58,279 bases of DNA from Lactobacillus equicursoris DSM 19284 = JCM 14600 = CIP 110162 (GTDB taxonomy: Bacteria > Bacillota > Bacilli > Lactobacillales > Lactobacillaceae), in assembly GCF_001434815.1 (NCBI RefSeq), contig NZ_AZDU01000006.1, forward strand, positions 1 to 58,279, written 5' to 3'. The notes beneath the pieces were generated by a model. That model had not been told where the DNA came from. It made no database searches and saw nothing but the letters and a program-made list of their open reading frames with translations. Below, in pieces: positions 23,233-46,346 of the stretch. Position 1 is the first letter of the stretch. Each line of letters starts with the position of its first letter. The translations under genes were made by a program, and so were the position numbers.

Positions 23233-23281
23233 TAGATAGCCTAAATTTTTAGGATAAAAGGAAAAGAGAAAGAGCAAACAC

Positions 23282-27395: not shown

Positions 27396-27806
27396 CTAGC
27401 TCACAAACATAACGGTAAGGGAGAACCAGTTGTTTTTGACGCTCAAGTTTGTGGTGGCGTTGTAACGCTTGGCGATCTGCTCAATGCTCCTCAGGCCGTA
27501 GCCGTGGGGGCGGCTGGTATCTTTCTTGGTGCTTTCTGGCAGGGCACCATTTTCCAGTTTAGGCTGGGCTTCAGTATAGTTGCGGATATTATAGATGACC
27601 AGATTTTCCTTTTGCGTGATCCGCAGATCAATTAGCCGCTTCTCCGGGTCAGGGATCTTGCTGACAGCTTCAATAGCGTTATCCAGACTGTTGCCCAGCA
27701 AGCTGCAGAGGTCCATGGTATCGATTTGGTCCAGCAAGCGGCCGGCGCGTAGTTACCCGCTTGTACCAAGTGGCCAAGAAGATCTATGCCTTTAACTAGG
27801 AAAATA
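27396..27806 (-). pseudogene. Remnant of a GHKL-type (AgrC/ComD-like) sensor histidine kinase
   Basis: The intact part (27737-27396, 113 residues) is only the C-terminal ATPase region: an N-box-like DLCSLLGNSLDNAIEAV and a G-box-like HGYGLRSIEQIAKRYNA, as in GHKL kinases of peptide quorum-sensing systems. Just upstream, a second frame reads KGIDLLGHLVQAGNYA, which fits the end of the dimerisation helix, so a frameshift and an internal deletion separate the pieces. The membrane sensor and phosphorylated His are missing, and no response regulator or pheromone gene is adjacent. Non-functional as a kinase. Confidence 0.8.
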
Positions 27807-27829
27807 GGGGGTTGGAGTTGAGCCAAAAT

Positions 27830-27848
27830 TATGAACCAAAAGTTCATA
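27830..27848. promoter_or_regulatory. Perfect palindrome, possible operator
   Basis: TATGAAC/GTTCATA arms of 7 bp around CAAAA. A related but shorter palindrome occurs at 27953-27966, about 120 bp away. No gene start lies immediately after it. Confidence 0.4.
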
Positions 27849-27907
27849 GGGGAGACACCCCCGTTCACACATCCTAGTTTTGAGATTGATAGTCTCGATG
27901 TGCCTCT

Positions 27908-27936
27908 TGATTGCAGCACACTTAACATAGTACAAT
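27908..27936 (+). promoter_or_regulatory. Candidate promoter of a short transcript
   Basis: TTGATT (27908-27913), exactly 17 bp, TACAAT (27931-27936). A transcript would start near 27943 and meet the terminator at 28019-28044. Confidence 0.45.
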
Positions 27937-27942
27937 ATAGAT

Positions 27943-28044
27943 ACCACGATTATGAACCGGAGTTCACATCTGATGTGCAAGAAATGGTACCAGCTGATTA
28001 CTTGTGCCGAACCGGTTGGGGCGCTTAATAGGCGCTCTTTTTTT
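27943..28044 (+). ncRNA. Candidate short transcript of about 100 nt, function unknown
   Basis: Bounded by the candidate promoter above and a hairpin terminator, GGGCGC/GCGCTC (28019-28024, 28032-28037) followed by seven T. It starts within 11 bp of a GAAC-CGGA-GTTC palindrome. It could be a small RNA, or the message for a 14-residue peptide (ATG at 27984, MVPADYLCRTGWGA) with only a weak ribosome binding site. The 450 bp between 27737 and 28189 hold no other gene. Confidence 0.3.
27954..27965. promoter_or_regulatory. LexA-like palindrome GAAC-N4-GTTC
   Basis: GAACCGGAGTTC inside TGAAC-CGGA-GTTCA matches the core spacing of Gram-positive SOS boxes (CGAAC-N4-GTTCG) but lacks the outer C/G. It lies just downstream of the candidate -10 at 27931-27936, a position where repressor binding would block transcription. 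Confidence 0.3.
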
Positions 28045-28110
28045 ATGCACTTTTTCTGAACCAACTACTCGTTCTTTCTACAAGGAGTCTTTTTCTCTTT
28101 ACATGCGTGC

Positions 28111-29028: not shown

Positions 29029-29903
29029 TGAAAAAGAAAAGAATGATTTTTGCTGCTGGCGCGGTTGCTCTGCTTTTTGCCGTGACATCTACCAAGCCGG
29101 TTGATTCCCAGAATTATCCAAAGATTACTGTTAAGACCAAGCGGGTCAATAAGTATAAAGATAAAATCGAAGACTACGAGTCCGATAATCTTACTTTAAA
29201 AGATGAGACTGATCTTATTAAGGATAAGACTGAGGAAGCTAAGGAAAAGCTGGCCAAAAAGCCGGGTAGTAAGACCAGCCAGACTACGTCCACGAAAGAA
29301 ACGGCTTCTGCTAAGTCAAAGCAAACTGATCTGGCATCCCTGACTTATAGCGGACAACTGTCTACTGAAGTAAATAACAACCAACCAGACTTCAGCCAAA
29401 GTGACCTGTCAACCAGCCGCGGTGCCTGGCAAACCTACGGCAATCTGGACAGCTTGAACCGGGCGACTACGGCCAATGCAATGCTGAATCAGTCCCTAAT
29501 GCCGACTGCTAAAAGAGAACCTCTGCACTGGGATCCAACTGGCTGGCACAACAAGCGGATTTCCAGCGGCTGGCTCTATAACCGGAGTCACTTGATCGGC
29601 TACCAGCTGACTGGACAGAATAACAACCCGAAGAACCTAATTACTGGTACGGAAGAAATGAACGTATCGGGGATGCTGCCATACGAAAATGAAGTAGCTG
29701 ACTATTTGAAGGAATCTTCAAGCAACTACGTCCGCTACCGGGTTAAGCCAATCTTTAAAGGCGATGAGCTTCTGGCCCGCGGCGTTCAAATGGAGGCCAA
29801 GTCTGTTGGCAGCAACGCGGTTTCCTATAACGTCTATGTTTTTAACGTCCAGCCCGGTGTTGTTTTGAACTACAGCGATGGTACCAGCCGGGTACAGAAT
29901 TAA
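29028..29903 (+). CDS. Secreted DNA/RNA non-specific endonuclease (EndA/NucA-like)
   Basis: A 291-residue protein with an N-terminal hydrophobic segment (MKKKRMIFAAGAVALLFAV) acting as signal or anchor, a charged linker (about 30-100) and a beta-beta-alpha-metal nuclease domain. The catalytic region reads NRSHLIGYQLTG, with His188 in the place of the DRGH-type histidine, followed by the Mg2+-ligand region NNPKNLITGTEEMN. It should cut extracellular DNA or RNA for nutrition or during DNA uptake, as EndA does in streptococci. It starts inside the stop of the upstream membrane protein gene (TAATG overlap). Confidence 0.88.
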   Translation: MKKKRMIFAAGAVALLFAVTSTKPVDSQNYPKITVKTKRVNKYKDKIEDYESDNLTLKDETDLIKDKTEEAKEKLAKKPGSKTSQTTSTKETASAKSKQTDLASLTYSGQLSTEVNNNQPDFSQSDLSTSRGAWQTYGNLDSLNRATTANAMLNQSLMPTAKREPLHWDPTGWHNKRISSGWLYNRSHLIGYQLTGQNNNPKNLITGTEEMNVSGMLPYENEVADYLKESSSNYVRYRVKPIFKGDELLARGVQMEAKSVGSNAVSYNVYVFNVQPGVVLNYSDGTSRVQN

Positions 29904-29915
29904 ATAGCATAGAAA

Positions 29916-29973
29916 AAAGTTCTCTGTAACTGTTAGACTTCACTTCTAACAGAGCGGAGAACTTTTATTTTTT
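29916..29973 (+). terminator. Terminator of the nuclease operon
   Basis: Two-step stem: AAAGTTCTC/GAGAACTTT outside and CTGTTAGA/TCTAACAG inside, followed by a T-rich tract. Confidence 0.9.
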
Positions 29974-30024
29974 ATGGGCTTTAATTCCTAGTAAACGATA
30001 TGCCTTACACTAAATAGCATCAGT

Positions 30025-30056
30025 AAGACCCGCACCCAATCACGGATGCGGGTCTT
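30025..30056 (-). terminator. Hairpin downstream of the lic/glycosyltransferase operon
   Basis: Stem AAGACCCGCACCC/GGATGCGGGTCTT with one mismatch-like G-T pairing; the U tract on the minus strand is weak. Confidence 0.65.
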
Positions 30057-30059
30057 CGT

Positions 30060-31241
30060 CTATTTCAGCCACAATTCCTCATATTCCCCGGCGATCGCGG
30101 GCCAGCTGTAGGCCTGGGCGACCCGTCTTTGAGCTGCTTTGCCAAAGTCTTCGACTGCCTGCTGGCTGAAGGATTCAACCTTTTCGATTAACCGCCGCAA
30201 ACTCCCTGGCTCCTTGGTCCAGTAAAGACCAGCCTGCCTGGCGACTTCTTGATTGAAGCCGACGTCGTAAAGCAGGTTCAGCTTGGTGCTGCTGAGACTC
30301 TCCAGAAGTGACGGATTGGTTCCGCCAACTGAGTGCCCATGCAGGTAGGCGTAGGCGTTCTCCCGGATCTTTTTGAGCAAGTCTTGGTTATAAACCGTAC
30401 CCACGAATTTGATCCGGGGATCTGCCTTAAAGTGCAATTTTTCCTCCAGTTTTGCCAAAAAGCGCTCGTTGGCCGTGGTGATAATGGCCAAATCCTTTCG
30501 GCTCTTGCTGGCCATAAATTCCCTAATCATCGTCTCAAAATTATTTTCCGGCACAAATCGGCCCACGATCAAGTGGTAGTTCTTAACCTGTAATTTTTTC
30601 TCCTGCAGCCAGTCAGTAAAAAGCTGGTCGCTGTCGTCTAAGGGACTCGCCGCCAGCTGACTGCCGTAAGCAATAAAGGCAGTCTCTGGCCGGTACTTGC
30701 CGTAATTTCTTAAAATATAGCGCTCAATCTCAATTGAATCGCAGATGACCTGGTCGCTATGCTTAACCATCAGCCTTTCTGATACCTGCCAGTACTTGCG
30801 GACTGGCCAAGGCCACTTGCCTCGCCGCCATTCATGTCCGTCCGGGTTAATGAAGACCTGTCCGCCTAAGCGGTGGATCTGCCTGACGTATGTCTTCATA
30901 AATGGTCCAATCCGGCAGGCCAAGATGTAAAAAATTGGCGCCGCCAAATTATGCCGTTTACAATAAGCAATTCCATAGCGGAGGGCTGCCAGGTCATAAT
31001 AGATCGCCTGAGCTGGGCCCAGCTTTTCCGGTACCCGGATCTTAAAACAATTTGCCCCCCGGTACTTGAAGCGGATCCCGCCGCCTTCCATGGCGCCATC
31101 CCCGTTTTCCTTGCAAGCTACATGGTATTGGATCTTTTCATGATTCGCGTGCTGGTTCAAGAGCTGCTGGACAAAGCTTTCATAGCCCCCGTAAGAAGCT
31201 AGCCCTTTGGAACCGATAATGAATACGTGTCTCTCTTTCAG
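30060..31241 (-). CDS. Rhamnosyltransferase-like glycosyltransferase (DUF1972 plus GT4), CTG start
   Basis: Cytoplasmic glycosyltransferase of 393 residues for the second sugar of a polysaccharide repeat, resembling beta-1,4-rhamnosyltransferases of the Cps2T type. The N-terminal DUF1972 part reads VFIIGSKGLASYGGYESFVQ; the C-terminal GT4 part contains GRFVPENNFETMI and HGHSVGGTNPSLLESLSS. The first ATG/GTG/TTG in frame would delete the nucleotide-fold start, and the coding frame clearly runs upstream of it. The only good start is CTG at 31241, seven bases after AAGGAGG and 12 bp after the preceding stop codon. A CTG start is rare; it may be real or a mutated TTG/ATG. Confidence 0.85.
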   Translation of the reverse strand: MKERHVFIIGSKGLASYGGYESFVQQLLNQHANHEKIQYHVACKENGDGAMEGGGIRFKYRGANCFKIRVPEKLGPAQAIYYDLAALRYGIAYCKRHNLAAPIFYILACRIGPFMKTYVRQIHRLGGQVFINPDGHEWRRGKWPWPVRKYWQVSERLMVKHSDQVICDSIEIERYILRNYGKYRPETAFIAYGSQLAASPLDDSDQLFTDWLQEKKLQVKNYHLIVGRFVPENNFETMIREFMASKSRKDLAIITTANERFLAKLEEKLHFKADPRIKFVGTVYNQDLLKKIRENAYAYLHGHSVGGTNPSLLESLSSTKLNLLYDVGFNQEVARQAGLYWTKEPGSLRRLIEKVESFSQQAVEDFGKAAQRRVAQAYSWPAIAGEYEELWLK

Positions 31242-31253
31242 AAAAATTCCTCC

Positions 31254-31889
31254 TTACATCCCAGTTGGCCTAAAGATCAGGCCAATCGTTTTAACCATCA
31301 ACCGCAAATCTAGCCACAGGGACCGCTGGTTGATATACTTGATATCTAATTGCACCATCTGGTCAAAATCTCCATCGTTCCGGCACTCCACCTGCCAAAG
31401 GCCCGAGCAGCCCGGCTTGACCAATAATCTCTGCCAATCATAGTCGCTGTACTGCCTGGCTTCTTCCGGTAGGGGTGGCCTGGGCCCAATCAAGGCCATC
31501 TCGCCCCTCAGCACATTGACCAGCTGGGGCAGTTCATCCAGGCTGTAGCGCCGAATCATCTTCCCAATCTTGGTTATCCGGGGGTCGTCTTTGATCTTAA
31601 ACATGGCACCCGCAATCTCATTTTTCTCCAGTAAATCTTTCTTCATTTGGTCCGCCCCCTCGATCATGGAGCGGAACTTCCAGATTTTAAAAGTCCACCC
31701 CCCTTGGCCCAGCCGGGTCTGCGAGTAAAAAATGGGCCCGCCGTCTTCTAATTTTATTTTTACTGCCAAATATAAAAAGAGGGGAGAGAAGAGGGCTAAT
31801 CCCAGGCTGCTCAGGCCCAAATCCAGCACCCGGCTGCTTGCCCGGTAGACCGGGTTCCCTCTTACTTTTTGGTAATTGATTTTTTCCAT
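31254..31889 (-). CDS. Priming sugar-phosphate transferase of polysaccharide synthesis
   Basis: Polyisoprenyl-phosphate hexose-1-phosphate transferase, 211 residues, which starts each repeat unit by moving a sugar phosphate onto undecaprenyl phosphate in the membrane. One hydrophobic segment (LGLSSLGLALFSPLFLYLAV) is followed by the family core: GGPIFYSQTRLGQ, FKIWKFRSM, the catalytic-region RRYSLDELPQL, and LIGPRPPLPEE. It matches the short form with only the catalytic domain. Its ATG overlaps the end of the upstream licB-like gene, with GAGGTGA as ribosome binding site. Galactose versus glucose specificity cannot be told. Confidence 0.95.
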   Translation of the reverse strand: MEKINYQKVRGNPVYRASSRVLDLGLSSLGLALFSPLFLYLAVKIKLEDGGPIFYSQTRLGQGGWTFKIWKFRSMIEGADQMKKDLLEKNEIAGAMFKIKDDPRITKIGKMIRRYSLDELPQLVNVLRGEMALIGPRPPLPEEARQYSDYDWQRLLVKPGCSGLWQVECRNDGDFDQMVQLDIKYINQRSLWLDLRLMVKTIGLIFRPTGM

Positions 31890-32824
31890 CAGTTATCACC
31901 TCGCTTAAACAAAGCCCGCCAGTCCGCCGCCGTCAAAATACTGCCGGCAAAAACCAGGCAGGCAAAAAAGATGGTCTGCCAGTTGACCAGGTCCCAGCCA
32001 CCCGCCAGGACTGTAAAGAGAAAGGCCCAGGCCGCGTAGGTCACGTTCAAGGCCATCGCCTTGCTGGGACCCACTTGCTCAATAGCCTTGTAGTAACAGA
32101 AGTAAGAAGCCGTGGCCAGTCCGCTGGCGCCGACAAGTAACAGGCCCAGCTTGCTTGGCCCCTTAGTGACTATCTCGCCTAAAAAGCCGCCTGCCTGCAA
32201 AGCTGTAACCAACAGCATCCCCGAAACAGCCGCTGCCGCGGTCTGCCTGATCTGCAGGGCCTGCCTGGTCTTGATCCCGCCCTTAAAGGACTTGGCCAAA
32301 ATCACTGCTTCCAAGCCCCAGCCGCCGGCGCACATGATCGCGCAGGCCAGGCCTAAGATCAGCTTGTCGCCTGTCAGCTGCCCGCTGTAACTCAAGCCAT
32401 AAACTCCGGCCAAACTTGCCAAAAGGCAGAGCCAGCGAAAGAGCGACAATTTCTCACCCAAGATCAAGTAGGCCAAGACGGCCCCGACGGCTGGGAAGAT
32501 GGCGCAGGCCACGGCCCCAAGGGCTGGTCCCATGAACTTGACGGCTAAAACATAGCCGCTCATCCCGACTGGACCGCCCACCGCCGCGGCTAACACAATC
32601 CACCAATAGTCCTTGCGCCACTTTTTCCAGGTAGAAGCCTGCCCTGCCACTAGCCTTTGCCCCCACAGCCAGAAGCAGGAGAGGGAGTCGTGGAAAAAAG
32701 CGCAGACAAAGGGGGCTAAAAAGGCAGCCTCCAGGTCCCGGTTGAAAAGGGGGACAGTCACCGCCCTGCTTAAGAGCAGGGTTGCCGCCGCCCAAGTGAT
32801 GCCAGCCATAATTCCCGCTAACAT
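31889..32824 (-). CDS. licB: LicB-like EamA/DMT-family transporter, probable choline permease
   Basis: A 311-residue membrane protein with ten hydrophobic segments in two EamA halves, each ending in a typical loop (for example AVGAVLAYLILGEKLSLF). EamA proteins next to licA and licC are the LicB choline importers of Haemophilus and pneumococcus, and here the gene lies between licC and the priming transferase. GGAAGG precedes the ATG. Its likely role is choline uptake for phosphocholine decoration. By sequence alone it could be any DMT permease; the name rests on context. Confidence 0.72.
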   Translation of the reverse strand: MLAGIMAGITWAAATLLLSRAVTVPLFNRDLEAAFLAPFVCAFFHDSLSCFWLWGQRLVAGQASTWKKWRKDYWWIVLAAAVGGPVGMSGYVLAVKFMGPALGAVACAIFPAVGAVLAYLILGEKLSLFRWLCLLASLAGVYGLSYSGQLTGDKLILGLACAIMCAGGWGLEAVILAKSFKGGIKTRQALQIRQTAAAAVSGMLLVTALQAGGFLGEIVTKGPSKLGLLLVGASGLATASYFCYYKAIEQVGPSKAMALNVTYAAWAFLFTVLAGGWDLVNWQTIFFACLVFAGSILTAADWRALFKRGDN

Positions 32825-32842
32825 AATCGCCTTCCTTCCTAT

Positions 32843-33733
32843 TTAATAAGGATGACCCAGCCGCTGGCAGCGGATGACCCGGCCTAGCTGGTAGAGGTAG
32901 CAGTACAGTCGTCCGTTATGGCGGAAGTGAAAGCCAATTGCCTCATTGCTCCGGCCTTTGATAGGCTTGATCTTGTCGATGCGCTCTTCTTCGGTAGCTA
33001 AGAAATGGGCGCACTTTTTGAGGATATGGGACCGGGAGTCCTTTTGATAGGAGTGGTCAAAGTTCCGCAATTCCTCCAGACTGTCGAATTCCTTGATATA
33101 GCCGGCCGGGAACCTGGCCAGGCGCATCTTGAGCTGGCCTAAATTTTCGGCTAGAATCTCTTCCCAGAACTTGCCGGCTATCGCTTCTCGCTTTTGGGCC
33201 ATAATTTGGAAAAATTTCCGGGAAAAGTCCTCGCTCCAAAAGGCATGGCCCAGCATGTACCAGGAATTTTTGGCAAAAGTGGTCACCTGCTTAATGTAGC
33301 CGTCTTGGTCTGTCGAGATGCCCCATTCCGCAGTTTCGCCCTGGCTGTACTGACCGGCGTAGTAGCTGCCCGCTTTTTCCAGGCCCAGGCGAAAAGGGTT
33401 GGTCAAAAAATAATTATCAGCCGAGCAGATGAAGCTGTTTTTGATTACCTTCCGGGCCAGCCAGAGACTGGCTGCACTGTTTTGCCGGGCATAGGCGGGA
33501 TTGTCGATCAGGCTTACCCCGTACTTGCCCTTTAAGTAGTAAAACTGCTCTTTCTTGTAGCCGGTGACGATGTAGATTTGGCCAAGCCCGGCTGCTTTAA
33601 GCTGGCGGATTTGCCGCTCAAGCATGACTTCTCCCTTGACCTCGATCAGGCCCTTGGGCTTTTCATAAGACAAGGGAGCAAAACGGGCCCCGGCCCCTCC
33701 GGCCAAGATTACCGCGTTATCGGCTCTTGTCAT
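32843..33733 (-). CDS. licC: LicC-like CTP:phosphocholine cytidylyltransferase with extra C-terminal segment
   Basis: Nucleotidyltransferase of 296 residues making CDP-choline from phosphocholine and CTP. The N-terminal nucleotide loop VILAGGAGARFAPLSYEKPK and the FICSADNYFLTNPF core with its metal-binding Asp fit LicC. The enzyme proper should end near residue 235; about 50 more residues (KIKPIKGRSNEAIGFHFRHN... LYQLGRVIR) resemble the start of a choline-kinase N lobe, as if left from a LicC-LicA fusion. The ATG overlaps the stop of licA (TGATG). It lies in the order licD-licA-licC-licB. Confidence 0.8.
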   Translation of the reverse strand: MTRADNAVILAGGAGARFAPLSYEKPKGLIEVKGEVMLERQIRQLKAAGLGQIYIVTGYKKEQFYYLKGKYGVSLIDNPAYARQNSAASLWLARKVIKNSFICSADNYFLTNPFRLGLEKAGSYYAGQYSQGETAEWGISTDQDGYIKQVTTFAKNSWYMLGHAFWSEDFSRKFFQIMAQKREAIAGKFWEEILAENLGQLKMRLARFPAGYIKEFDSLEELRNFDHSYQKDSRSHILKKCAHFLATEEERIDKIKPIKGRSNEAIGFHFRHNGRLYCYLYQLGRVIRCQRLGHPY

Positions 33734-34612
33734 CAGGCCACCCCCCTTCTTTTCAAAGCTCTTGCCGCGTACTCTTTGGCATAGCGGTACTGCCTGCGCC
33801 CATAAGGGGCTAAAGCTTGCTCAGGCTGGAAGGCCTCGCACCAGGTCGACCAGAGCAGGCCGCAGATGGCCATGTAGCAGTAGATCTTGGTCTTGATATC
33901 TTCCGGGCACTTTTGGCCAAAATATAAATCCAGCAGCTGATCAAGTTCGGCTTTTTCATAGCCGGCGTAGATGACGAACATGGTCAAATCCACGTGGGGG
34001 TCCTGCATCCCCGCGTATTCCCAATCGGTTAATTGCAGCTTGCTTTGCCCGCCTTCTTGGTTTGTCGGCCACCGGATCCAGGTGGGTCAGGCAGAGCTCT
34101 TTTGGCACCGTGTCCAGGTATGGCTTTAAGCTGAAAACCTTCGCTTTAGTCTCTTGGTAGTCTGGAAAAAGCGACGGCCGGGTTCCCCGCAACTTTTCGT
34201 AATGGTTGATCTGGGCAAAAAGATCGAAATTATGCGGAACTTCGATCCTTGCCTGGTGCAGGCGCTTAATCTGCTTGGTCCAGCTGATTAAGTCCTGCTT
34301 TTTCCTTGGGTCGCAGGGCCGGGCCTTTGGCAAGAAGGGGCTGAGCTTGAAGCCCGTTTCTGGATCCAGGTAAAGGGGAGAGTCGCAGAAATTGTAGGGC
34401 TGGATGGCCTGGTAGACCGCTGCTTCTTGGACCCGGTCGATGATTTGGTGCTTTGGCCTGGGCTGTCTAAAGTGGTAGCTTTTTCCGTCATAGTCTAGGC
34501 GGAAGGAGTAGTTGGTCATGCCTTTAGTTAAAGGCACGAAATTCAGTTCATCAGGGTCAGCTTGGAAAAAGATGGCAATCGTCATGACTGCCCGCTGACT
34601 TAAGTAGGACAT
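33733..34612 (-). pseudogene. licA: LicA-like choline kinase, single-base frameshift
   Basis: Choline kinase of the APH/ChoK fold, which phosphorylates choline as the first step of phosphocholine decoration. The frame from ATG 34612 (after GAAGGTGACC) gives the N lobe (FVPLTKGMTNYSFRLDYDGK) and the Brenner-type motif CLTHLDPVAD. It then goes out of frame at an A triplet (34061-34063 on the plus strand). Removing one A restores VADNQEGGQSKLQLTDWEY, followed by MQDPHVDLTMFVIYAGY and the C lobe to the stop at 33733. So the gene is complete except for one extra base. It could be a true mutation or a sequencing error; the run is too short for slippage-type phase variation. Confidence 0.85.
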
Positions 34613-34736
34613 GTGGTCACCTTCTTTTTCTAAAAAAACTCGTGATATATCTTGTCCTAACAGCTTAGCATGGCTGATGGATAAGATAAAATGATATCTT
34701 TTAATCGAAAGCAAAATTTTGCTTATAGTTAAAAGG

Positions 34737-35548
34737 CTATTGAGGATAAATCTTATAGTCGTGGTGGGGCTGGCGGTCCGTAGCCGGAGGCAATTCCTGG
34801 TAGTTTCCGTAATATTCCTGCAGGATAGGTTCCGGCTTGACTGGGATGCGGAAAAAGGAACCGGCAAAGGGCACATACTTGCCTTCCCCAAAGCATTTTT
34901 TGTCCAGCAGGTGGGGGCCAGCATCGGCCAAGCGGGGACGCCAACTTTTTGCGCCCCGTCTTTTGTTTTGGCCAAAATAATCTGCTGGATTTTCTCATCA
35001 ACTGCTTGGGCAAAGTTCTCCCCCCAAACCCAGTCGACCAGCCCTTGGTAGAGGCGGTGGACGGATCGGGTCAAGCAGTTCTGGGGCCAATTGGCCGCGT
35101 AGGCATAGTAGGCCATGTTGACCAGCTTGCAGCGGTGGTAGAGCTGACGGGCAACCGGATAGGAAGAACCGTTTTCGTCCAAGGGGTAGATGTCGGTGAA
35201 GACGCCCGCGGGGAATTGCTCGCTTGGCTTGGTTGAGACGAACTCATAGTCCTGGTTGCTAAAGCGGGCCAGGCCATAGGGATAGCCAGGGGTGTTCTCC
35301 CGGTTGACGATCCGGTAAGGAGTAGGAAGAGCGTGCTCGCAGTAGGCGATGAAGGCCTCATAGTCCCGCCGGGGCATCCAGATGTCGGTGTCATCGTCCC
35401 AAGGAATGAAGTCCTGGTGGCGAACGGCGCCTAAGAGGGTTCCATAGGCCAGGTAGTAGGTCAGGCCCTGCTCTTGGCAAATCCGGTCGATTATCTTGAG
35501 ATTCTCCAGTTCGACTGCTTGGATCTCGTTAAGTGTGAGTTTTCGCAT
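34737..35548 (-). pseudogene. licD: LicD-like phosphocholine transferase, single-base frameshift
   Basis: LicD transfers phosphocholine from CDP-choline to a sugar of a surface glycan. From the ATG at 35548 (AAGGAGG five bases before) the first 200 or so residues show the family core LAYGTLLGAVRHQDFIPWDD with its acidic DDD cluster (51-53) and FTDIYPLDE. At about 34931-34934 one base is missing. Resuming one frame over gives ADAGPHLLDKKCFGEGKYVP, then ILQEYYGNYQELPPATDRQP up to the stop at 34737. The downstream half is therefore preserved but untranslated. It is the first gene after the operon promoter. Confidence 0.85.
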
Positions 35549-35592
35549 GTTTTCCTCCTTCAAGATTTGTGTTTAGGGTTTGTAGTCAAATA

Positions 35593-35621
35593 ATTTAACA
35601 GGCTAAAATATGGCCCGTCAA
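35593..35621 (-). promoter_or_regulatory. Promoter of the lic/priming-transferase operon
   Basis: Minus strand TTGACG (35621-35616), exactly 17 bp, TTAAAT (35598-35593), 45 bp upstream of the licD ATG. Confidence 0.7.
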
Positions 35622-35785
35622 GTCTGAAAAGCTTAAGAAATTCTTTCCCACTCGTGCAAAAAAGTCCGCTATATTTCTGAAAAATCAATTTATTCCTATT
35701 AGGAGAAGGGCGGGAATTGACGGGAAATTTTTTTCACAAAATATTAAAAAAATAAGCGTGAGAGTCGTAAGGCTGGGAATGACCC

Positions 35786-35815
35786 TTGTACAGGTTTGCA
35801 CTTGTATGCTAATTT
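35786..35815 (+). promoter_or_regulatory. Candidate promoter of the plus-strand polysaccharide operon
   Basis: TTGTAC (35786-35791), 18 bp, TAATTT (35810-35815) with a TG just before the -10. Another TTGACGGG block at 35713-35725 repeats the -35 region of the divergent promoter but has no good -10. Confidence 0.4.
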
Positions 35816-35850
35816 ATTGCTTACAAAATTTCACGCAAAGGAGATGACCA

Positions 35851-36828
35851 ATGAAAACACGTGATTTGCGCAAGCTCATTCAAAAGCAGGGGGGCTGGGA
35901 CCTAATCCGTCAGTACGCCGCATCCGGCAACCTCCCCTTGGCCGCTGGCCAAATACTACTCTTAGGGACTAAGGAAAAGGCCCTGGAGATTCTCCGCCTC
36001 AGTGCCCAGTACCGGGTCAAGGAGAAGTTGGCCAAACGCTATAAGAAAGAGCTTGATCATTTAGTTAAGCTGCATGGTGGAGAAGACAAGGAAGAAGTAA
36101 AAGAAGACCAGCCCTATATCTGGTTTTGTTGGCTGCAAGGCTTATCAGCGGCTCCGCCAGTTGTCAGAAACTGCTACAGATCGGCTTTGGCGGCTTACGC
36201 GGGGAAGGGGAAGGTTACCTTGATCACGGCTGACAACTACCGGGACTATGTGTTTTTTCCGCCGGAAATCCAGGCGAAAATTAAGCGCGGAATCATAACA
36301 GGCGCCCATTTGGCTGACTTGATCCGGCTGGAGCTCTTGATCAATTACGGGGGAATTTGGACTGATGCGACTGTTTTTTACAGTGGGGATCTGCCAGATT
36401 ACCTCTTCCAAAACCGCCTTTTCGCCTACCAAATTGTCAAGCCGGGCCGGGACGGCCAAGCCATCCCCATGTCCAACTGGCTCCTGGCTTCGCCGAAAAG
36501 AAACAGACTGCTGTTGATTACTCGGGACCTGCTCTATGCCTACTGGGAAGAGCATGACAAGTTGCTTGACTACTATATTTTCCACATCTTTTTCCAGCTG
36601 GCGGCCGAGGCCTGTCCCAAAGATTGGGCGTCAGTTCTGCCGGTAGACAGCGGAGCTCCCCACCTCTTGGGCCAGCGCTTGTTTGAGAAATATGATCCGG
36701 ATTTTTGGCAGGCGATTAAGGCTCAAAGCAGTATCCACAAGCTGTCTTACAAGTTCCCGCCGGGGATGTTTTTGCGAAAGGGAACTTATTTTGCCAAAGT
36801 TGTGGCGCAAGGAGGTAAAAATGGCTAA
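35851..36828 (+). CDS. GT32-like capsular polysaccharide glycosyltransferase
   Basis: A cytoplasmic 325-residue protein of the capsular polysaccharide synthesis/GT32 type. After a helical N-terminal region (1-90) comes PYIWFCWLQG, then the family's nucleotide-sugar region HLADLIRLELLINYGGIWTD with Asp172 in the DxD-like position. AAAGGAG precedes the ATG. It is the first gene of a four-gene plus-strand operon for repeat-unit assembly, polymerisation and export. Donor and acceptor sugars are not predictable. Confidence 0.85.
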   Translation: MKTRDLRKLIQKQGGWDLIRQYAASGNLPLAAGQILLLGTKEKALEILRLSAQYRVKEKLAKRYKKELDHLVKLHGGEDKEEVKEDQPYIWFCWLQGLSAAPPVVRNCYRSALAAYAGKGKVTLITADNYRDYVFFPPEIQAKIKRGIITGAHLADLIRLELLINYGGIWTDATVFYSGDLPDYLFQNRLFAYQIVKPGRDGQAIPMSNWLLASPKRNRLLLITRDLLYAYWEEHDKLLDYYIFHIFFQLAAEACPKDWASVLPVDSGAPHLLGQRLFEKYDPDFWQAIKAQSSIHKLSYKFPPGMFLRKGTYFAKVVAQGGKNG

Positions 36829-37783
36829 AAGCAAGAAACTGGCCCTGGTAATTTGTTACTTTGGCCCCCTGCCGGCTTATGCGGACTTATTCTTTAGGTC
36901 GGTTAAGGCGAATCCAACGATTGACTTTATTTTGGCGACTGACCAGCTGGTTAAAAATCCCCCGGCCAATCTTCAGGTCAAGTATTTGACCTTAGCGGAT
37001 TTGCGGGAGAAATTTCAAAAGAAGCTGGGCTTTGCCATCCGCCTGCATGCCCCTTACAAAATTTGCGACTACCGGCCGGCCTTTGGCTGGCTCTTGTCTG
37101 ACTGGCTGAAGGACTACCGCTATTGGGGCCACTGCGACTTAGATCAAGTCATGGGGGATTTGGAGAAGTTTTTGCCAGAAAAATTGCTGGAAAAGTACGA
37201 CAAGGTTTACCAGCACGGGCATCTGACGGTCTTTCGCAATACCTTGACCAACAACCTCCGCTTCGTGGCCAAGGGCGGGCTGAACTACCGGCAAGTTTTC
37301 CAGACGGACCTGCCCTGCGTCTTTGATGAGGTGGAAGGAATCCAGAAGAAGTTTGCCAGGCTAGGCGCCAAGTGCTGCCTGAAGCGGGATTTCGCGGATA
37401 TTTATTCCTGGCGCGAACAGATGAAAAGAACTACGTCATATTTGTCGAGGCGGGAGAAAAAACGGCTCAATAATTTTTACCAGCTCTTCTTTTATGAAAA
37501 AGGCCGGGTGTACCGGGCCTACTTTGCCGGCGGGAAGATGAACTATGAAGAGCTGGCCTATCTGCATTTCCCCAAGCGGCAGATGCGGCAGAACTTTTAC
37601 CAGACTGATTCCTACTTTATCGGCAAGGATGGCTTTTACGCTAAAGAACCTGGCTTCAACGTGACCATGGGAGAGATCAAGCGCTATAACGGCTTCAGCC
37701 TAGCTGGGGAGGCCCGGGTGAAGCTGGCTTATTGGACCTTCATCTGGAGCCGGCGATACCGCAAGTACGTCCTTAAGCGCTAA
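36821..37783 (+). CDS. DUF6625-like probable glycosyltransferase
   Basis: A 320-residue protein beginning MAKSKKLALVICYFGPLPAY. The start is the ATG at 36821, four bases after GGAGG and overlapping the end of the upstream gene; earlier in-frame ATGs lie deep inside that gene. WGHCDLDQVMGDLEKFLP in the middle looks like a GT-A DxD-type site. Such proteins are common in polysaccharide loci of lactobacilli and streptococci. Role as glycosyltransferase is inferred; no sugar can be assigned. Confidence 0.8.
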   Translation: MAKSKKLALVICYFGPLPAYADLFFRSVKANPTIDFILATDQLVKNPPANLQVKYLTLADLREKFQKKLGFAIRLHAPYKICDYRPAFGWLLSDWLKDYRYWGHCDLDQVMGDLEKFLPEKLLEKYDKVYQHGHLTVFRNTLTNNLRFVAKGGLNYRQVFQTDLPCVFDEVEGIQKKFARLGAKCCLKRDFADIYSWREQMKRTTSYLSRREKKRLNNFYQLFFYEKGRVYRAYFAGGKMNYEELAYLHFPKRQMRQNFYQTDSYFIGKDGFYAKEPGFNVTMGEIKRYNGFSLAGEARVKLAYWTFIWSRRYRKYVLKR

Positions 37784-37784
37784 T

Positions 37785-39014
37785 ATGGTAGTTCGCCTGC
37801 GCCGGCAGAACCTGGTCACGGTTTATTTGACCTGGCAAATGGCCTGCTTTGCCTGTTTGAACCAACTTTTCTCCTTGCCTTTGGCTGATAGCCAGGATGA
37901 ACTTTTAGCCATTTTTTGCCTGATCGGGATTGTCTGGGCACTATTGACGAGGCGGCTGACTAAAGAAAAAGAGTGGCTTTTCTTACAAAGCTGCTTTGCC
38001 TTGGGCTTGGTGGAAAGCCTGGGGATAATTTCTAACGGGATGTCGGACATAATCGGCGGGATGCCAGTACTAGTCGACGCTTTTAAGCTGGTCAAGCTGC
38101 CTTTGGTCCTTTTCTACGTCAGCTGTGTCCTCCGTCCTTGGGAAAAAAGGACGCTGGCCTGCAACCTGCTTTTGGTCAGCAAAGCCTTTATCCTCCTGGC
38201 CTTCCTCGGCGGACTTATCAATTTAGTGGTCGATGTTGGTTTTAGCTACGACCTGCGCTACGGGATCCGGTCCTACAAGTTCATCTATGAGAACCCGGCC
38301 GCCTTAAATGAGGTCCTGCTGGTCTCATTAGTGCTGATCATGCTGGCTGAGAAAATTAAGGGGGAAAATAAGCGCGGACTTAGGCAGATCAAGTTTTGGC
38401 TCTGTTTATACCTGGCGGCGGTGGTGATGACCTTGCGGGCTGGCGGGATCGGGGCCAGCGGGATTTTGCTTTTGGTCCTGCACTTTGAGAAAAAGGGGAT
38501 CCGGCTGACTTGGAGAAAAGGCGTCAGCGCTGCCTTTGTGGCTTTTGGCCTAGGTTATCCCCAGGTAAAGGAGTACTTTTTTAGCGAAACGGTCAGGTCG
38601 AAATTGCTTAGGCATTCCTTGATCGTTCTGCGGGACTGCTTTCCCTGGGGGAGCGGCTTCGCGACCTACGGGTCAGATCAGGCCTTTAAGCATTACTCCC
38701 CCCTATATGTCCGCTTTGGTTTCCACCATGACTACGCCTTAGCCCAAGAGACGGGCTTTGCCATGAATGACAACTTCTGGCCCATGCTTTTGGCCCAGTT
38801 TGGCCTCTTTGGGGCTTTCCTATATGTGTACTGGTTATTCGTCCAGCTGGGTTACTGCGTCAAAAAAGCTCCGCCAGGCCAGCCGCGGGCCGGGGCCTTG
38901 GGCCTTGTGGCCTTTTTCCTGATCAGCTCGGCAGGCAACCCGATTTTCACTAGCGCTTCGGGAGTCTTTTTGGCAATTGCCTTGGGCTTGACCAGTGAAT
39001 TTTTGAAAAAGTAA
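37785..39014 (+). CDS. Wzy-like polysaccharide polymerase
   Basis: A 409-residue membrane protein with about ten to eleven hydrophobic segments and a larger external loop near the C terminus (about 285-330, GSGFATYGSDQAFKHYSPLY), the topology of O-antigen/EPS polymerases. It starts one base after the upstream stop without a clear ribosome binding site, so translation is probably coupled. Wzy proteins have little sequence conservation; the call rests on topology, place before the flippase gene, and the absence of any other candidate. Confidence 0.75.
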   Translation: MVVRLRRQNLVTVYLTWQMACFACLNQLFSLPLADSQDELLAIFCLIGIVWALLTRRLTKEKEWLFLQSCFALGLVESLGIISNGMSDIIGGMPVLVDAFKLVKLPLVLFYVSCVLRPWEKRTLACNLLLVSKAFILLAFLGGLINLVVDVGFSYDLRYGIRSYKFIYENPAALNEVLLVSLVLIMLAEKIKGENKRGLRQIKFWLCLYLAAVVMTLRAGGIGASGILLLVLHFEKKGIRLTWRKGVSAAFVAFGLGYPQVKEYFFSETVRSKLLRHSLIVLRDCFPWGSGFATYGSDQAFKHYSPLYVRFGFHHDYALAQETGFAMNDNFWPMLLAQFGLFGAFLYVYWLFVQLGYCVKKAPPGQPRAGALGLVAFFLISSAGNPIFTSASGVFLAIALGLTSEFLKK

Positions 39015-39054
39015 CAGGAAAAATAGTGATAAAAAAGCAGAGAGAAGGTGACAG

Positions 39055-40506
39055 ATGGATAAAAGAGAAAGAAAGACAAAATCCCTCTCCCGCAACGCCT
39101 TGGCCAGCGGCCTGCAGACGGGGACCCGCCTAGTTTGCGCCCTGGTAACTTACCCCTATTTGGCCAGGATCTTGCGGGTTGACCAACTGGGTCAATATGA
39201 CTTTGCGGCTACGGTTGTCAGCTGGGCGGCGCTAGTGGCGGGCCTTGGCATCTATACCTACGGGGTCAGGGAGGGGGCAAAAAAGCGGGATAACCCGGAA
39301 GAGCTGTCCCGCTTTGCTTCTGAAGTGCTGGTCATCAACCTGGCCTCGACCTTGCTGGCTTACTTGGGTCTGGCTGCCTGCCTCCTTTTTTCCAGCAAGC
39401 TAAGGGAATATGGACCGCTGATTTGGACCTTGAGTACTAGCATTATTTTTACCACCCTGGGCTGCGAGTGGCTCTACGCGGTTCACGAGGAATATGGCTA
39501 CCTGGCCTTGCGCAATATCTGCTTTCAGATTTTATCTCTGATCCTGCTTTTGACATATGTCAAGGACGAGGGCGACCTTTTGCTATATGCTTGGACTACG
39601 GTCATTGCCAGCGCCGGGGCCAACTTGGTCAACTTTATCAGATTGCGTAGGTATTGCATCTGGTCTTTGACCTGGCGCTTTTCTTGGCAAAAGCACCTCC
39701 TGCCGATCTTTGTCTTATTCGCCAACGCCCTGGTTAACCTGCTTTATGTAAGCGCGGATGTAGCCCAGCTGGGGGTAATGACCAGCGACTATTATACGGG
39801 CCTGTACTCGGTGGCCAGCAAGGTTACGGCCCTGCTTAAGCAATTGTTAGGCGCTGTCATTGTTGTTACCGTGCCGCGCCTGGCTTGCTTATACGGGCAA
39901 AAGGGAGGGGGATTTTTTGTAAAATTGGCCCGGCAGATCGGGGACTTACTGCTGACGCTAGCTTTGCCGGCATCCTGCGCCTTGTTTGTTTTAGGCGAGG
40001 AGGTCGTCATTTTAACCGCGGACTTAGATTTCGCGCCGGCCGCGGGTGCCATGAAGCTTCTGGGTCTGACCCTGGTCTTTTACCTTTTAGCATGGTTTTA
40101 CATGGCAGCTGTCTTGGTGCCGGCCCGGCAGGAGAAGGCGGCTTTGCTGGCGATCAGCCTTGCTTCTGTGGTCAATGTTGGTTTGAACTTCCTGCTGATC
40201 CCGGCTTTTAAGGAAAAGGGAGCAGCGCTGGCAACTCTGCTGGCGGATATAGTGACTTGCTTGGCTTGTTACTTTTTGGCGAAAAGACCGACCCGAATTT
40301 TGCCCAGCGGCAAAAAGTTGGCCAGCAGCCTGCTCGGTTGCCTTTACGTCTATCTGGTTTGCCAGGCTGTTTTAGCTCAAGAACTAGGGCCGGCAGCGAC
40401 GGTCGGTTTGGCGGCATTGCTGGCAATTCCTGGCTACTTTGTGATTTTGTATTTATGCGGCAACCGAATCTGGCTGGAATTTAAGCACGGAGGTAGCCAA
40501 GAGTAA
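39055..40506 (+). CDS. Wzx-type oligosaccharide flippase
   Basis: Membrane protein of 483 residues with 12-14 hydrophobic segments and the polysaccharide-transporter start SLSRNALASGLQTGTRLVCA, followed by FPYLARILR-like TYPYLARILRVDQLGQYDFA. It flips undecaprenyl-linked repeat units across the membrane before polymerisation. It lies 40 bp after the polymerase gene; a G-rich GAAGGTGAC serves as ribosome binding site. No clear terminator follows, and the glycerol facilitator gene has its own promoter. Confidence 0.9.
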   Translation: MDKRERKTKSLSRNALASGLQTGTRLVCALVTYPYLARILRVDQLGQYDFAATVVSWAALVAGLGIYTYGVREGAKKRDNPEELSRFASEVLVINLASTLLAYLGLAACLLFSSKLREYGPLIWTLSTSIIFTTLGCEWLYAVHEEYGYLALRNICFQILSLILLLTYVKDEGDLLLYAWTTVIASAGANLVNFIRLRRYCIWSLTWRFSWQKHLLPIFVLFANALVNLLYVSADVAQLGVMTSDYYTGLYSVASKVTALLKQLLGAVIVVTVPRLACLYGQKGGGFFVKLARQIGDLLLTLALPASCALFVLGEEVVILTADLDFAPAAGAMKLLGLTLVFYLLAWFYMAAVLVPARQEKAALLAISLASVVNVGLNFLLIPAFKEKGAALATLLADIVTCLACYFLAKRPTRILPSGKKLASSLLGCLYVYLVCQAVLAQELGPAATVGLAALLAIPGYFVILYLCGNRIWLEFKHGGSQE

Positions 40507-40544
40507 GGAAATGGCTTGCAGAGATAAGTTTGCTAAAAAAACAC

Positions 40545-40574
40545 TTGTCGCCTCTGCAGCGCTTGCATTATAAT
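40545..40574 (+). promoter_or_regulatory. Promoter of the glycerol facilitator gene
   Basis: TTGTCG (40545-40550), 18 bp, TATAAT (40569-40574), 38 bp upstream of the start. Confidence 0.65.
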
Positions 40575-40611
40575 ATTGATACTAGATAAAAATAGAAAAG
40601 GAAGAATAATG

Positions 40612-42720: not shown

Positions 42721-42767
42721 CTAAGTCAGCAAGTAAAAATGATTAGTTGAACTTGGAGGTTCATTTT

Positions 42768-43805
42768 ATGAAAGTTATCGTTACCGGTGGTGCCGGCTTT
42801 ATCGGCTCCAACTTTGTCTTCTACATGATGAAGAAGCACCCAGACTACAAGATCATCTGCCTGGACAAGCTGACTTACGCGGGCAACTTGTCAACTTTGA
42901 AGGATGTCATGGATAAGCCAAACTTCCGCTTTGTCAAGCTGGACATCTGTGACCGTGAAGGTGTCTACAAGCTCTTCGAAGAAGAACACCCGGACGTTGT
43001 GGTCAACTTTGCCGCAGAAAGCCATGTTGACCGGTCAATCGAAAACCCAGAAATCTTCCTGCAAACCAACATCATCGGGACGTCTGTCTTGATGGATGCC
43101 TGCCGCAAGTACGGGATCAAGCGTTACCACCAAGTTTCAACTGATGAAGTTTACGGTGACCTGCCACTGGACCGGCCAGACCTCTTCTTCCACGAAGACA
43201 CGCCGCTCCACACTTCCAGCCCATATTCTTCATCCAAGGCCAGCGCTGACCTCTTAGTTGGGGCTTACGGCAGAACCTATGGCCTGCCGGTAACTATTTC
43301 CCGTTGCTCCAACAACTACGGCCCTTACCAATTCCCAGAAAAGCTGATTCCATTGATGATTCAGCGGGCTTTGGACGACAAGCACCTTCCAGTTTACGGT
43401 GAAGGGCAAAACGTCCGCGACTGGCTCTACGTTGAAGACCACTGCAAGGCCATTGACCTCATCTTGGAAAAGGGGACGGTTGGTGAAGTCTACAACATCG
43501 GTGGTCACAACGAAATGCACAACATCGACATCGTTAAGCTGATCTGCGATTACTTGGGCAAGCCATACTCCTTGATCGAACACGTTACTGACCGTAAGGG
43601 CCACGACCAACGCTACGCCATCGACCCAACCAAGATTCACGAAGAACTGGGCTGGCTGCCAGAAACCATGTTCAAGGACGGGATCAAGAAGACCATCCAA
43701 TGGTACCTGGACAACAAGGAATGGTGGGAAAACATCATCTCTGGCGACTACCAAAACTACTACCAGGAAATGTACGGTAAGAAGCAAGTTTTAGACGAAA
43801 AATAA
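42768..43805 (+). CDS. rmlB: dTDP-glucose 4,6-dehydratase
   Basis: Second enzyme of dTDP-L-rhamnose synthesis, converting dTDP-glucose to dTDP-4-keto-6-deoxyglucose. The 345-residue product has the NAD-binding Rossmann loop [12 protein letters not shown], the STDEVYGDL motif and the YSSSKASAD catalytic Tyr/Lys pair of the extended SDR family. The true start is ATG 42768 after TTGGAGG; an upstream TTG in frame overlaps that signal. It is the first gene of rmlBACD. The operon's codon use is strongly biased, as for highly expressed genes. Confidence 0.97.
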
Positions 43806-43821
43806 GGAAGCAGGAGAGAAA

Positions 43822-44706
43822 ATGAAGGGAATTATTTTGGCTGGTGGGTCAGGCACCCGCCTTTACCCATTGACTTTAGTAACCAGTAAGCAGCTGTTGC
43901 CAGTTTATGACAAGCCAATGATCTACTACCCACTGTCAACCTTGATGCTGGCCGGGATCAAGGATATCTTGGTCATCTCTACGCCAGCTGACACTCCGCG
44001 CTTTAAGGAGCTTTTAGGCGACGGGTCTCAATTCGGCATCAAGCTCTCCTACAAGGTGCAGCCAAGTCCAGACGGCCTGGCTCAAGCCTTCACCCTGGGG
44101 GAAGACTTTATCAACGGCGAACCATGTGCCATGGTTTTGGGCGACAACATCTTCTACGGCAACGGCTTTACCGACCTTTTGGAAAAAGCTGCTCGTGACG
44201 CCGAAGCTGGCAAGGCAACCGTCTTTGGCTACTACGTCAACGATCCAGAACGCTTTGGCGTGGTTGACTTTGATGAAAACGGCAAGGCCATTTCCATCGA
44301 AGAAAAGCCAGAACACCCAAAGAGCAACTACGCCGTTACGGGCCTTTACTTCTACCCAGCTGGCGTGAGTGAAAAAGCTGCCCAGGTTAAGCCAAGTGCC
44401 CGGGGCGAAGTGGAAATCACCACTTTGAACGAGATGTACTTAAACGCCGGCAACCTCGGCGTACAGCTGCTGGGCCGGGGCTACGCCTGGCTGGACACCG
44501 GGACCATGCAGAGCCTGGTTGACGCTTCCAACTTTGTCAAGATGGTGGAAGAGCGGACCAGCGTAAGCATCTCCGCCCCAGAAGAAATTGCCTACGTGCA
44601 CGGCTGGATCGACGAAGCTAAGTTGCTGGAAGCGGCCAAGCACTACGGCAAGAGCCCTTACGGCAAGCACTTAAAGGCCGTTGCTGAAGGCAAGCTCAAG
44701 TACTAA
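43822..44706 (+). CDS. rmlA: Glucose-1-phosphate thymidylyltransferase
   Basis: First committed enzyme of the pathway, making dTDP-glucose from glucose-1-phosphate and dTTP. The 294-residue product has the nucleotidyltransferase signature [16 protein letters not shown], the [17 protein letters not shown] segment, the VLGDNIFYG metal site and [10 protein letters not shown]. It follows rmlB after 16 bp with AGGAAGCAGGAG upstream. Length and motifs are typical of RmlA (RfbA-type). Confidence 0.97.
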
Positions 44707-44742
44707 TTTTTGGATTTTTTTAAAAAGAAAGAAGATATCAAA

Positions 44743-45351
44743 ATGGGTCAAATTAAAGTTGAAAAGAACGTCGGCGGCATCGAAGGCTTGGCAGTCATCA
44801 CTCCAACCGTTCACGGGGACGACCGCGGCTACTTCATGGAAACCTACAACGAAAACGACATGAAAGAAGCTGGCTTTGACATTAACTTTGTCCAAGACAA
44901 CCAATCTTCATCAACTAAGGGCGTTTTGCGCGGCCTGCACTTCCAAAAGCACTTCCCACAATGCAAGCTGGTTCGTGCTGTTCGCGGTGACGTTTTTGAC
45001 GTGGCCGTTGACCTCAGAAGCGACTCTAAGACTTACGGCAAGTGGTACGGGGTTGAACTGACCGCTGAAAACAAGAAGCAATTCTTGATTCCAGAAGGCT
45101 TTGCCCACGGCTTCCTGGTCTTGAGCGACGTGGCAGAATTCTGCTACAAGGTTAACGACTTCTGGCACCCTAACGATGAAGGCGGCATGGCTTGGAACGA
45201 CCCAGAAATCGGCATCGAATGGCCAAAATTGGTCGGCCAATACCCAGGCTCCGCTGACGCCAGCGGCTACTCCTTGGAAGACGGCACTAAGCTGACCTTG
45301 TCTGACAAGGACCAAAAGTGGCTGGGCATCAAGGATACCTTTAAGTTCTAA
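44743..45351 (+). CDS. rmlC: dTDP-4-dehydrorhamnose 3,5-epimerase
   Basis: Third pathway enzyme, a cupin of 202 residues. Family landmarks are DDRGYFMETY, the catalytic-His segment GVLRGLHFQ, and IPEGFAHGFLVLSD. An open reading from TTG 44710 is possible, but the ATG at 44743 matches the family N terminus and has AAAGAAGA upstream. It lies third in rmlBACD, 36 bp after rmlA. Confidence 0.95.
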   Translation: MGQIKVEKNVGGIEGLAVITPTVHGDDRGYFMETYNENDMKEAGFDINFVQDNQSSSTKGVLRGLHFQKHFPQCKLVRAVRGDVFDVAVDLRSDSKTYGKWYGVELTAENKKQFLIPEGFAHGFLVLSDVAEFCYKVNDFWHPNDEGGMAWNDPEIGIEWPKLVGQYPGSADASGYSLEDGTKLTLSDKDQKWLGIKDTFKF

Positions 45352-45371
45352 TTTTCAGGAGGAAAAAGTTA

Positions 45372-46346
45372 ATGAAGGTTTTCGTAACTGGCGTCAATGG
45401 CCAACTGGGCCACGACGTGATGAACGAATTGGCTAAGCGCGGCTACGAAGGCGTCGGCAGTGACCTTGCTCCAGAATACAGTGGGATCGCTGATGGCTCA
45501 GCTGTCACTGCTGCTCCTTACGTTTCTCTGGACATTACCGACGCTGCCGCTGTTGAAAAAGTGATCAAGGATGTCAACCCGGACGTGATCGTTCACTGTG
45601 CAGCCTGGACCGCGGTTGACCTGGCTGAAGACGACGACAAGGTTGCGGCTGTTCGCAAGGTCAACACTGATGGTACCCAAAACATTGCCAACGTAGCCAA
45701 GGAATTAGACGTGCCAATGGTTTACATCTCTACTGACTACGTCTTTGATGGCCAGGGCACTACTCCATGGGACCCGGACTTCAAGGGCTACAAGCCAATG
45801 AACGTTTACGGGGAAACCAAGCTAGGCGGGGAACTTGCCGTATCTGAAACTTTGGACAAGTACTTTATCGTCCGGATCGCCTGGGTCTTCGGTTTGAACG
45901 GGAAGAACTTTATCAAGACCATGCTTAATGTGGGCAAGACTCATGATGAAGTCAAGGTGGTCAGCGACCAAATCGGTACGCCAACTTATACTTTAGACCT
46001 GGCCCGCCTTTTAGTCGACATGATCGAAACCGACAAGTACGGCTACTACCACGCTACTAACGCTGAATTGCCGGAAACGGCCAGCGGCTATGATGAAAAT
46101 GGCACTAAGACCGGCTACATCAGCTGGTACGATTTCACCAAGGAAATCTACCGCCAGGCTGGCTACAAGACCAAGGTGACCCCAGTTACTACGGAAGAAT
46201 ACGGCCTCTCTAAGGCAGTGCGGCCATTTAACTCCCGTTTGGACAAGAGCAAGCTGGAAAAGAACGGCTTTAAGCCGTTGCCAACTTGGCCAGACGCGGT
46301 GCACCGCTACCTGGAAGCTTTAAAGGCTGACGGTTTCTTTGACTAA
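45372..46346 (+). CDS. rmlD: dTDP-4-dehydrorhamnose reductase
   Basis: Last step, NADPH-dependent reduction to dTDP-L-rhamnose. The 324-residue SDR protein has the Rossmann loop VTGVNGQLGHDV, the CAAWTAVDLAEDD segment, YISTDYVFDG and the catalytic YGETKLGGE. Its C-terminal segment (SRLDKSKLEKNGFKPLPTW) is typical of RmlD. CAGGAGG precedes the ATG and a strong terminator follows. With a rhamnosyltransferase-like gene at 30060-31241, the product probably feeds the neighbouring polysaccharide. Confidence 0.96.
   Translation: MKVFVTGVNGQLGHDVMNELAKRGYEGVGSDLAPEYSGIADGSAVTAAPYVSLDITDAAAVEKVIKDVNPDVIVHCAAWTAVDLAEDDDKVAAVRKVNTDGTQNIANVAKELDVPMVYISTDYVFDGQGTTPWDPDFKGYKPMNVYGETKLGGELAVSETLDKYFIVRIAWVFGLNGKNFIKTMLNVGKTHDEVKVVSDQIGTPTYTLDLARLLVDMIETDKYGYYHATNAELPETASGYDENGTKTGYISWYDFTKEIYRQAGYKTKVTPVTTEEYGLSKAVRPFNSRLDKSKLEKNGFKPLPTWPDAVHRYLEALKADGFFD

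Follow-up and report, generated by a model that had tools for sequence, protein, structure and literature searches.

A putative Lic-1-type phosphocholine gene module with frame changes in licD and licA in a Lactobacillus surface-polysaccharide locus

Introduction

Phosphocholine is recognised by natural antibodies and by C-reactive protein, and a harmless lactobacillus carrying it, or having lost it, would therefore be a clean system for its role as an epitope outside pathogens. Here, four lic-type genes are described from contig NZ_AZDU01000006.1, a stretch of 58,279 nucleotides that is called the window below. It belongs to a Lactobacillus genome (G000) available as a draft of 182 contigs. 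Judged from sequence comparison, the genes probably form a phosphocholine module of the Lic-1 type within a Wzx/Wzy-type surface-polysaccharide locus, with licD and licA broken in this genome and the set open in a related species.

The closest described system is Lic-1 (licABCD) of Streptococcus pneumoniae and Haemophilus influenzae. The window shares with it the same four functions; its LicC and its LicB each have their counterpart as the nearest solved protein, and its LicA keeps the cage residues that were tested. It differs in that the genes run licD-licA-licC-licB and stand with rhamnose genes in a polysaccharide locus, that two LicC pocket residues and LicA E213 are changed, that LicC has a LicA-like tail, and that licD and licA are frame-broken. 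Phosphonate tailoring by Pnt enzymes has the same cytidylyltransferase fold and logic (PntC), but requires a phosphoenolpyruvate (PEP) mutase, none of which was over the cut-off here, and PntC is a weaker match than LicC.

The original prediction for this DNA, made from its letters, described phosphocholine as best known from pneumococcus and Haemophilus; it had already been reported in lactobacilli, as a phosphocholine-modified exopolysaccharide cluster of L. helveticus CNRZ 32, predicted from sequence and absent from three other strains compared (PMC3751602, 2013). By its description, that cluster resembles the window in carrying phosphocholine genes in a Lactobacillus polysaccharide cluster. 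The main text of a survey of 26 phosphocholine-expressing species has no occurrence of "lactobacill" (PMC10434233). Oenococcus oeni is described with LicD and without LicA or LicC (PMC4047060), a choline-binding protein is described from L. salivarius (PMC5345100), and an exopolysaccharide of Clostridium immunis modified with phosphocholine is cited in a review (PMC12355684). In L. delbrueckii TUA4408L, the names licA and licC denote genes for lichenan transport (PMC6165883). The open-licence literature, judged mostly by titles and the openings of abstracts, yielded no report of this locus. The kind of gene set is already known; what is added is this member, a pair of open and broken loci, and an exchange of importers.

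The lic genes and their reading frames

Open reading frames (ORFs) and profile searches gave six genes on the minus strand, in the order listed here. Their coordinates and order, including the priming transferase and the rhamnosyltransferase, hold as originally predicted. G001 is a related Lactobacillus genome used for comparison; lengths are in amino acids (aa).

34737..35548, minus strand: licD, phosphocholine-transferase type (ATG at 35548; PF04991; three-frame translation)
33733..34612, minus strand: licA, choline-kinase type (ATG at 34612; comparison with G001 LicA; residues)
32843..33733, minus strand: licC, cytidine triphosphate (CTP):phosphocholine cytidylyltransferase type (296 aa, open; match to 1JYK)
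31889..32824, minus strand: licB, EamA/DMT-type choline permease (311 aa, open; match to 7B0K; PF00892)
31254..31889, minus strand: priming glycosyl-1-phosphate transferase (PF02397, E 7.5e-64)
30060..31160, minus strand: Cps2T-type beta-1,4-rhamnosyltransferase (NF046071, 513.8 bits, cut-off 500)

By three-frame translation, licD changes frame near 34,930, its N and C parts lying in different frames. The LicD domain PF04991 matched the N part (E 2.6e-29) at profile positions 1-104 of 227 only, and no complete LicD domain was found in the window copy. Similarly, licA changes frame near 34,060, with LicA of G001 matching at 34061-34609 in one frame and at 33748-34059 in another. A 535-aa ORF (33956-35563) combines the N parts of licD and licA in one frame and is a mechanical run-on of the two gene starts. 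Because each gene changes frame, neither is open end to end in the assembly; licC, licB and the downstream genes are still open. A search of the genome of the window found no second copy of licD or of licA. All four lic-type genes claimed as a full set are thus present, but with two of them frame-broken the set is not intact.

In the proposed pathway, LicB would import choline, LicA would phosphorylate it, LicC would make cytidine diphosphate (CDP)-choline, and LicD would transfer phosphocholine to a rhamnose-bearing repeat unit. The priming transferase would begin this unit, Wzx would flip it and Wzy would polymerise it. Choline is the most likely substrate, and a sugar of this unit the most likely acceptor. 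The frame changes are probably real rather than assembly errors and function has probably been lost; with licD and licA broken, the strain probably makes a polysaccharide without phosphocholine.

Assignment of the Lic proteins

In sequence searches, the nearest solved protein of LicC was pneumococcal LicC (1JYK, E 4.7e-35), followed by PntC (E 1.1e-9). An AlphaFold2 model from a nine-row alignment (predicted local distance difference test score, pLDDT, 88.6) gave 1JYK as the best fold match as well (template-modelling score, TM, 0.90 by target), PntC being the second-best solved match by both sequence and fold. Sugar-nucleotide enzymes (RmlA, MurU, GlmU) were tried as an assignment for LicC and rejected, being weaker matches on both counts. 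The only Pfam families matched by LicC are two general ones, NTP_transf_3 and NTP_transferase. Aligned with pneumococcal LicC, the protein keeps D107, W136, W191 and E216; the pocket roles of D107, W136, Y190 and W191 are presumed here.

The original prediction had named a placement in other sugar-phosphate pathways as the outcome that would speak against it. For LicC, the nearest solved relative proved to be LicC and not a sugar-phosphate enzyme. LicB, checked likewise, had as its single solved match at E <= 0.01 LicB itself (7B0K/7PAF, E 7.8e-27), and it also matched PF00892.

Read separately against a residue list for pneumococcal LicA (PMC4364537), the N piece of licA retains T29 and the C piece D194, E196, Y197, W251, W254 and Y268. 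Positions 174-181 were left unplaced by the alignment, and the motif HLD was read by eye in the translation. LicA of G001 matches pneumococcal LicA with E 3.4e-26, and LicD of G001 spans profile positions 1-227.

The related locus and the species

The same ten genes recur in G001, arranged as in the window and with 62-80% identity (licD C piece excluded): wzx 80%, wzy 75%, DUF6625 74%, Caps_synth 63%, licD N part 70%, licA pieces 67% and about 62-64%, licC 71%, licB 66%, priming transferase 68% and rhamnosyltransferase 74%. Its polysaccharide locus is syntenic and of the Wzx/Wzy type, and all four lic genes there are open; the open and broken loci make a natural comparison.

The DNA had been taken to come from a food-associated L. 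delbrueckii, an assignment that did not stand. Phosphofructokinase of the window's genome is 94% identical to 1ZXX, which we take to be the L. delbrueckii enzyme, against 99% for G061, 98% for G011, 97% for G031, 88% for G001 and at most 78% for the others listed. On this one gene, L. delbrueckii identity was rejected as too different, and nothing shows a food origin. At the DNA level, the phosphofructokinase locus of the window's genome aligns with that of G061 at 90.7% over 2517 bases plus 324 bases at 65.7%, and with that of G011 at 85.7% over 2983 bases; G061 and G011 align at 95.2% over 3952. These sequences point to another species of the same group.

Distribution of LicC and choline importers

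The genus set comprised 75 Lactobacillus genomes; for 15 of them, completeness or contamination falls outside the limits set for the tally. Strong LicC matches (E < 1e-20) were found in seven (G000, G001, G004, G011, G020, G058 and G073). LicD was found in nine genomes, six of them with LicC, and G073 has LicC without a LicD match. In a sample of the family, LicC (E <= 1e-15) occurred in 17 of 396 drawn genomes and 6 of 38 genera.

Full-length BCCT transporters occur in four genomes of the genus set (G011, G020, G058 and G073), each adjoining licC, and a partial BCCT occurs in G036. A LicB-like permease (E <= 1e-10) was found in G000 and G001, both with LicC. An importer of one of these two unrelated families is therefore present in 6 of the 7 LicC genomes, and a full-length importer in 0 of the 68 others (Fisher P 3.5e-8, rising to 2.4e-7 if the partial BCCT of G036 is included, in a test that ignores shared descent). 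LicB or BCCT beside licC is a genome-level pointer to choline use, which is supported by this gene context.

The BCCT-type modules resemble the window in bringing LicC, a LicA domain and an importer together, with LicD in three of the four genomes and not in G073. They differ in that LicA is fused behind a second LicC-like domain, BCCT replaces LicB, and choline-binding repeats adjoin in two. In four loci (L031, L033, L034 and L035), LicA forms the C-terminal part of a protein of ~580 aa with the second LicC-like domain in front, followed by a separate LicC and a BCCT transporter; in L031 and L033 the fusion has an HTH_24 match at its N end. Fused LicA domains exceed the Choline_kinase cut-off (G020 64.9, G011 53 bits). 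The BCCT gene of G020 adjoins one for a 728-aa protein whose choline-binding repeats exceed the cut-off, and in G058 PF01473 repeats stand in the same position. Locus L031 lies in G011, which its phosphofructokinase places in the same species group. The BCCT-type lic module of this locus shares a contig with genes resembling rmlA and rmlB and with a wzx that is shortened (88% identical), so alternative lic modules may occupy one chromosomal region.

Alternative explanations

The phosphocholine pathway of Lic-1 type that was originally predicted is still the best reading, and several observations weigh against it. Neither LicC nor LicD reaches the cut-off of an NCBIfam model. In the LicC pocket, D105 is replaced by Ser and D192 by Glu, and Y190 by Phe; the separate LicC of G020, G058 and G073 retains D105, Y190, W191 and D192. 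E213 of LicA, a quaternary-amine contact, is Tyr, as it is in 6 of 7 other LicA homologues aligned (Asp in G004). For LicA the family searches gave a divided answer. The tested cage residues are kept, but a choline/ethanolamine kinase (E 7.9e-4) is the one solved match to the N piece, and neither piece fits a Pfam family. Intact LicA of G001 stays below the Choline_kinase cut-off (25.9 of 29 bits), passing the general APH cut-off only, and its NCBIfam matches are far below cut-off. On the importer side, besides the shared descent that the Fisher test ignores, G004 has LicC but neither importer. Betaine or carnitine may be what the BCCT proteins transport: neither of the copies tested (G011 and G020) reached the cut-off of a choline-specific model, and the general BCCT model is just passed by the G011 copy (408.7 of 407.55 bits) and not by that of G020. 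Of 9 genomes scanned for PF01473, 7 scored over cut-off; G061 and G031, both without strong LicC, were among them and G000 and G004 were not, so choline-binding repeats by themselves do not track LicC. Finally, a single draft assembly cannot prove the breaks, and the assembly may be locally poor.

Some of these observations would suit a module transferring another zwitterion, phosphoethanolamine or 2-aminoethylphosphonate, which is considered improbable. Both pocket substitutions in LicC, the rank of PntC as second-best solved match, the Tyr at LicA position 213 and the weak choline-kinase scores would all be in its favour, as would an amino-acid-type permease beside the lic genes of G004, which is below all model cut-offs and has an ethanolamine permease model among its weak matches (99 of 382 bits). 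Tde-PntC has Glu at the places of both D105 and D192 (PMC6697681 names D105, D192 and E216); with Ser at the first and Glu at the second, the LicC pocket is a clean match to neither LicC nor PntC. Against transfer of another zwitterion stand the kept LicA cage and LicC W136 and W191, the LicB match and the BCCT context. Pneumococcal LicC prefers phosphocholine to phosphoethanolamine 2700-fold according to PMC6697681, though with other pocket residues. PEP mutase was over cut-off in 0 of 9 genomes (weak matches in 7, that of G000 scoring 19.2 bits against 319.55), hence there is no sign of a phosphonate supply, and the PntC reading was rejected on this ground.

The frame changes themselves could be assembly errors, the genes being whole in the living strain and phosphocholine being made. 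This is unlikely. In its favour, the genome is a draft, licC, licB and the downstream genes remain open, and the LicA pieces keep the tested residues. Elsewhere in the window, a remnant in broken frames lies at 27396-28064, by eye a GHKL-type histidine kinase. If the rate for the rest of the window is set by this one remnant gene, recognised by eye on the ORF list, two breaks within 1.8 kb have P 5e-4; the rate is rough, because only part of the window's genes was compared with relatives. Single-base runs near both breaks are at most 5 long, which also speaks against assembly error. The same short runs bear on phase variation, in which the assembly would have caught the lic genes in an off state. 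Phosphorylcholine is phase-variable in Haemophilus (PMC2992063), but here the sole tandem array found in 29,900-40,600 lies at 38893-38914, outside licD-licA, and both genes would have to be off together. With no repeat tract in licD-licA, phase variation was rejected and is regarded as very improbable.

Descent of the module

A LicC tree with 18 rows pairs the window with G001 at support 100/100. The window, G001, G011 and five other loci form a group named beforehand (89/94, below the starred level); four of these five come from Lachnospiraceae or Clostridiales metagenome-assembled genomes and one is titled only Bacterium 1xD8-48. The closest LicC proteins outside the genus are 52-53% identical to that of the window; within the genus, identity is 50% for G011, 41% for G004 and 30-34% for G020, G058 and G073. 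Tree and identities fit a lateral arrival of LicC and are no proof of it.

When profiles were compared, the last ~65 aa of LicC (window 32843-33040, minus strand) aligned with LicA N-lobes (hhalign probability 96.9%), and by eye the tail is without the LicA P-loop motif. When single sequences were searched, 4 of 8 LicC tails found a LicA N-lobe; those of the window and G001 did not. In one reading, the tail may be a relic of a LicC-LicA fusion.

More tentatively, phosphocholine decoration in lactobacilli might be an interchangeable module, with one slot next to the LicC-LicA core taken by either of the unrelated importers LicB and BCCT. Gut donors resembling Lachnospiraceae could have supplied the kind seen in the window, whose LicC would belong to a distinct subfamily, descended from a LicC-LicA fusion and altered in its pocket. 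This kind might now be being lost in the window's species, so that close relatives would differ in a surface epitope recognised by the host. We regard this wider proposal as possible, and as rather more speculative than the reading of the locus itself.

Neighbouring features

The remaining features of the locus are as follows:

35592..35621, minus strand: promoter-like site upstream of licD (consensus match only)
35851..36828, plus strand: Caps_synth glycosyltransferase (PF05704, E 1.7e-73)
36815..37783, plus strand: DUF6625 protein, probably a glycosyltransferase (PF20330, E 1.7e-81)
37785..39014, plus strand: possible Wzy polymerase, 409 aa (by position; G001 gene 75% identical)
39055..40506, plus strand: Wzx-type flippase (PF01943, E 4.3e-17)
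42747..46346, plus strand: rmlB, rmlA, rmlC and rmlD, dTDP (deoxythymidine diphosphate)-rhamnose supply (assigned by eye from ORFs)

Promoter-like sites in the region number 9, against 4.2 expected. The plus-strand genes from Caps_synth to Wzx are divergent from the lic operon side, with the rml genes further on. Two features of a Wzx/Wzy locus are present, the priming transferase (PF02397) and the flippase (PF01943); the Wzy candidate had no match in a Pfam scan. A break was suspected in the rhamnosyltransferase gene and rejected. Its frame is open upstream, from 31160 to about 31253 on the minus strand, and by eye this part resembles the N end of the G001 protein; only the usual start codon is absent, no ATG, GTG or TTG being found there.

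The G+C content is 49.0% in the window and 47.6% in three sampled stretches; for L. equicursoris, considered as a candidate species, 46% is reported (PMC3751618). Two secreted proteins are encoded at 22003-24946, by eye with amidase-like N parts and C-terminal repeats that are SLAP-like, not choline-binding.

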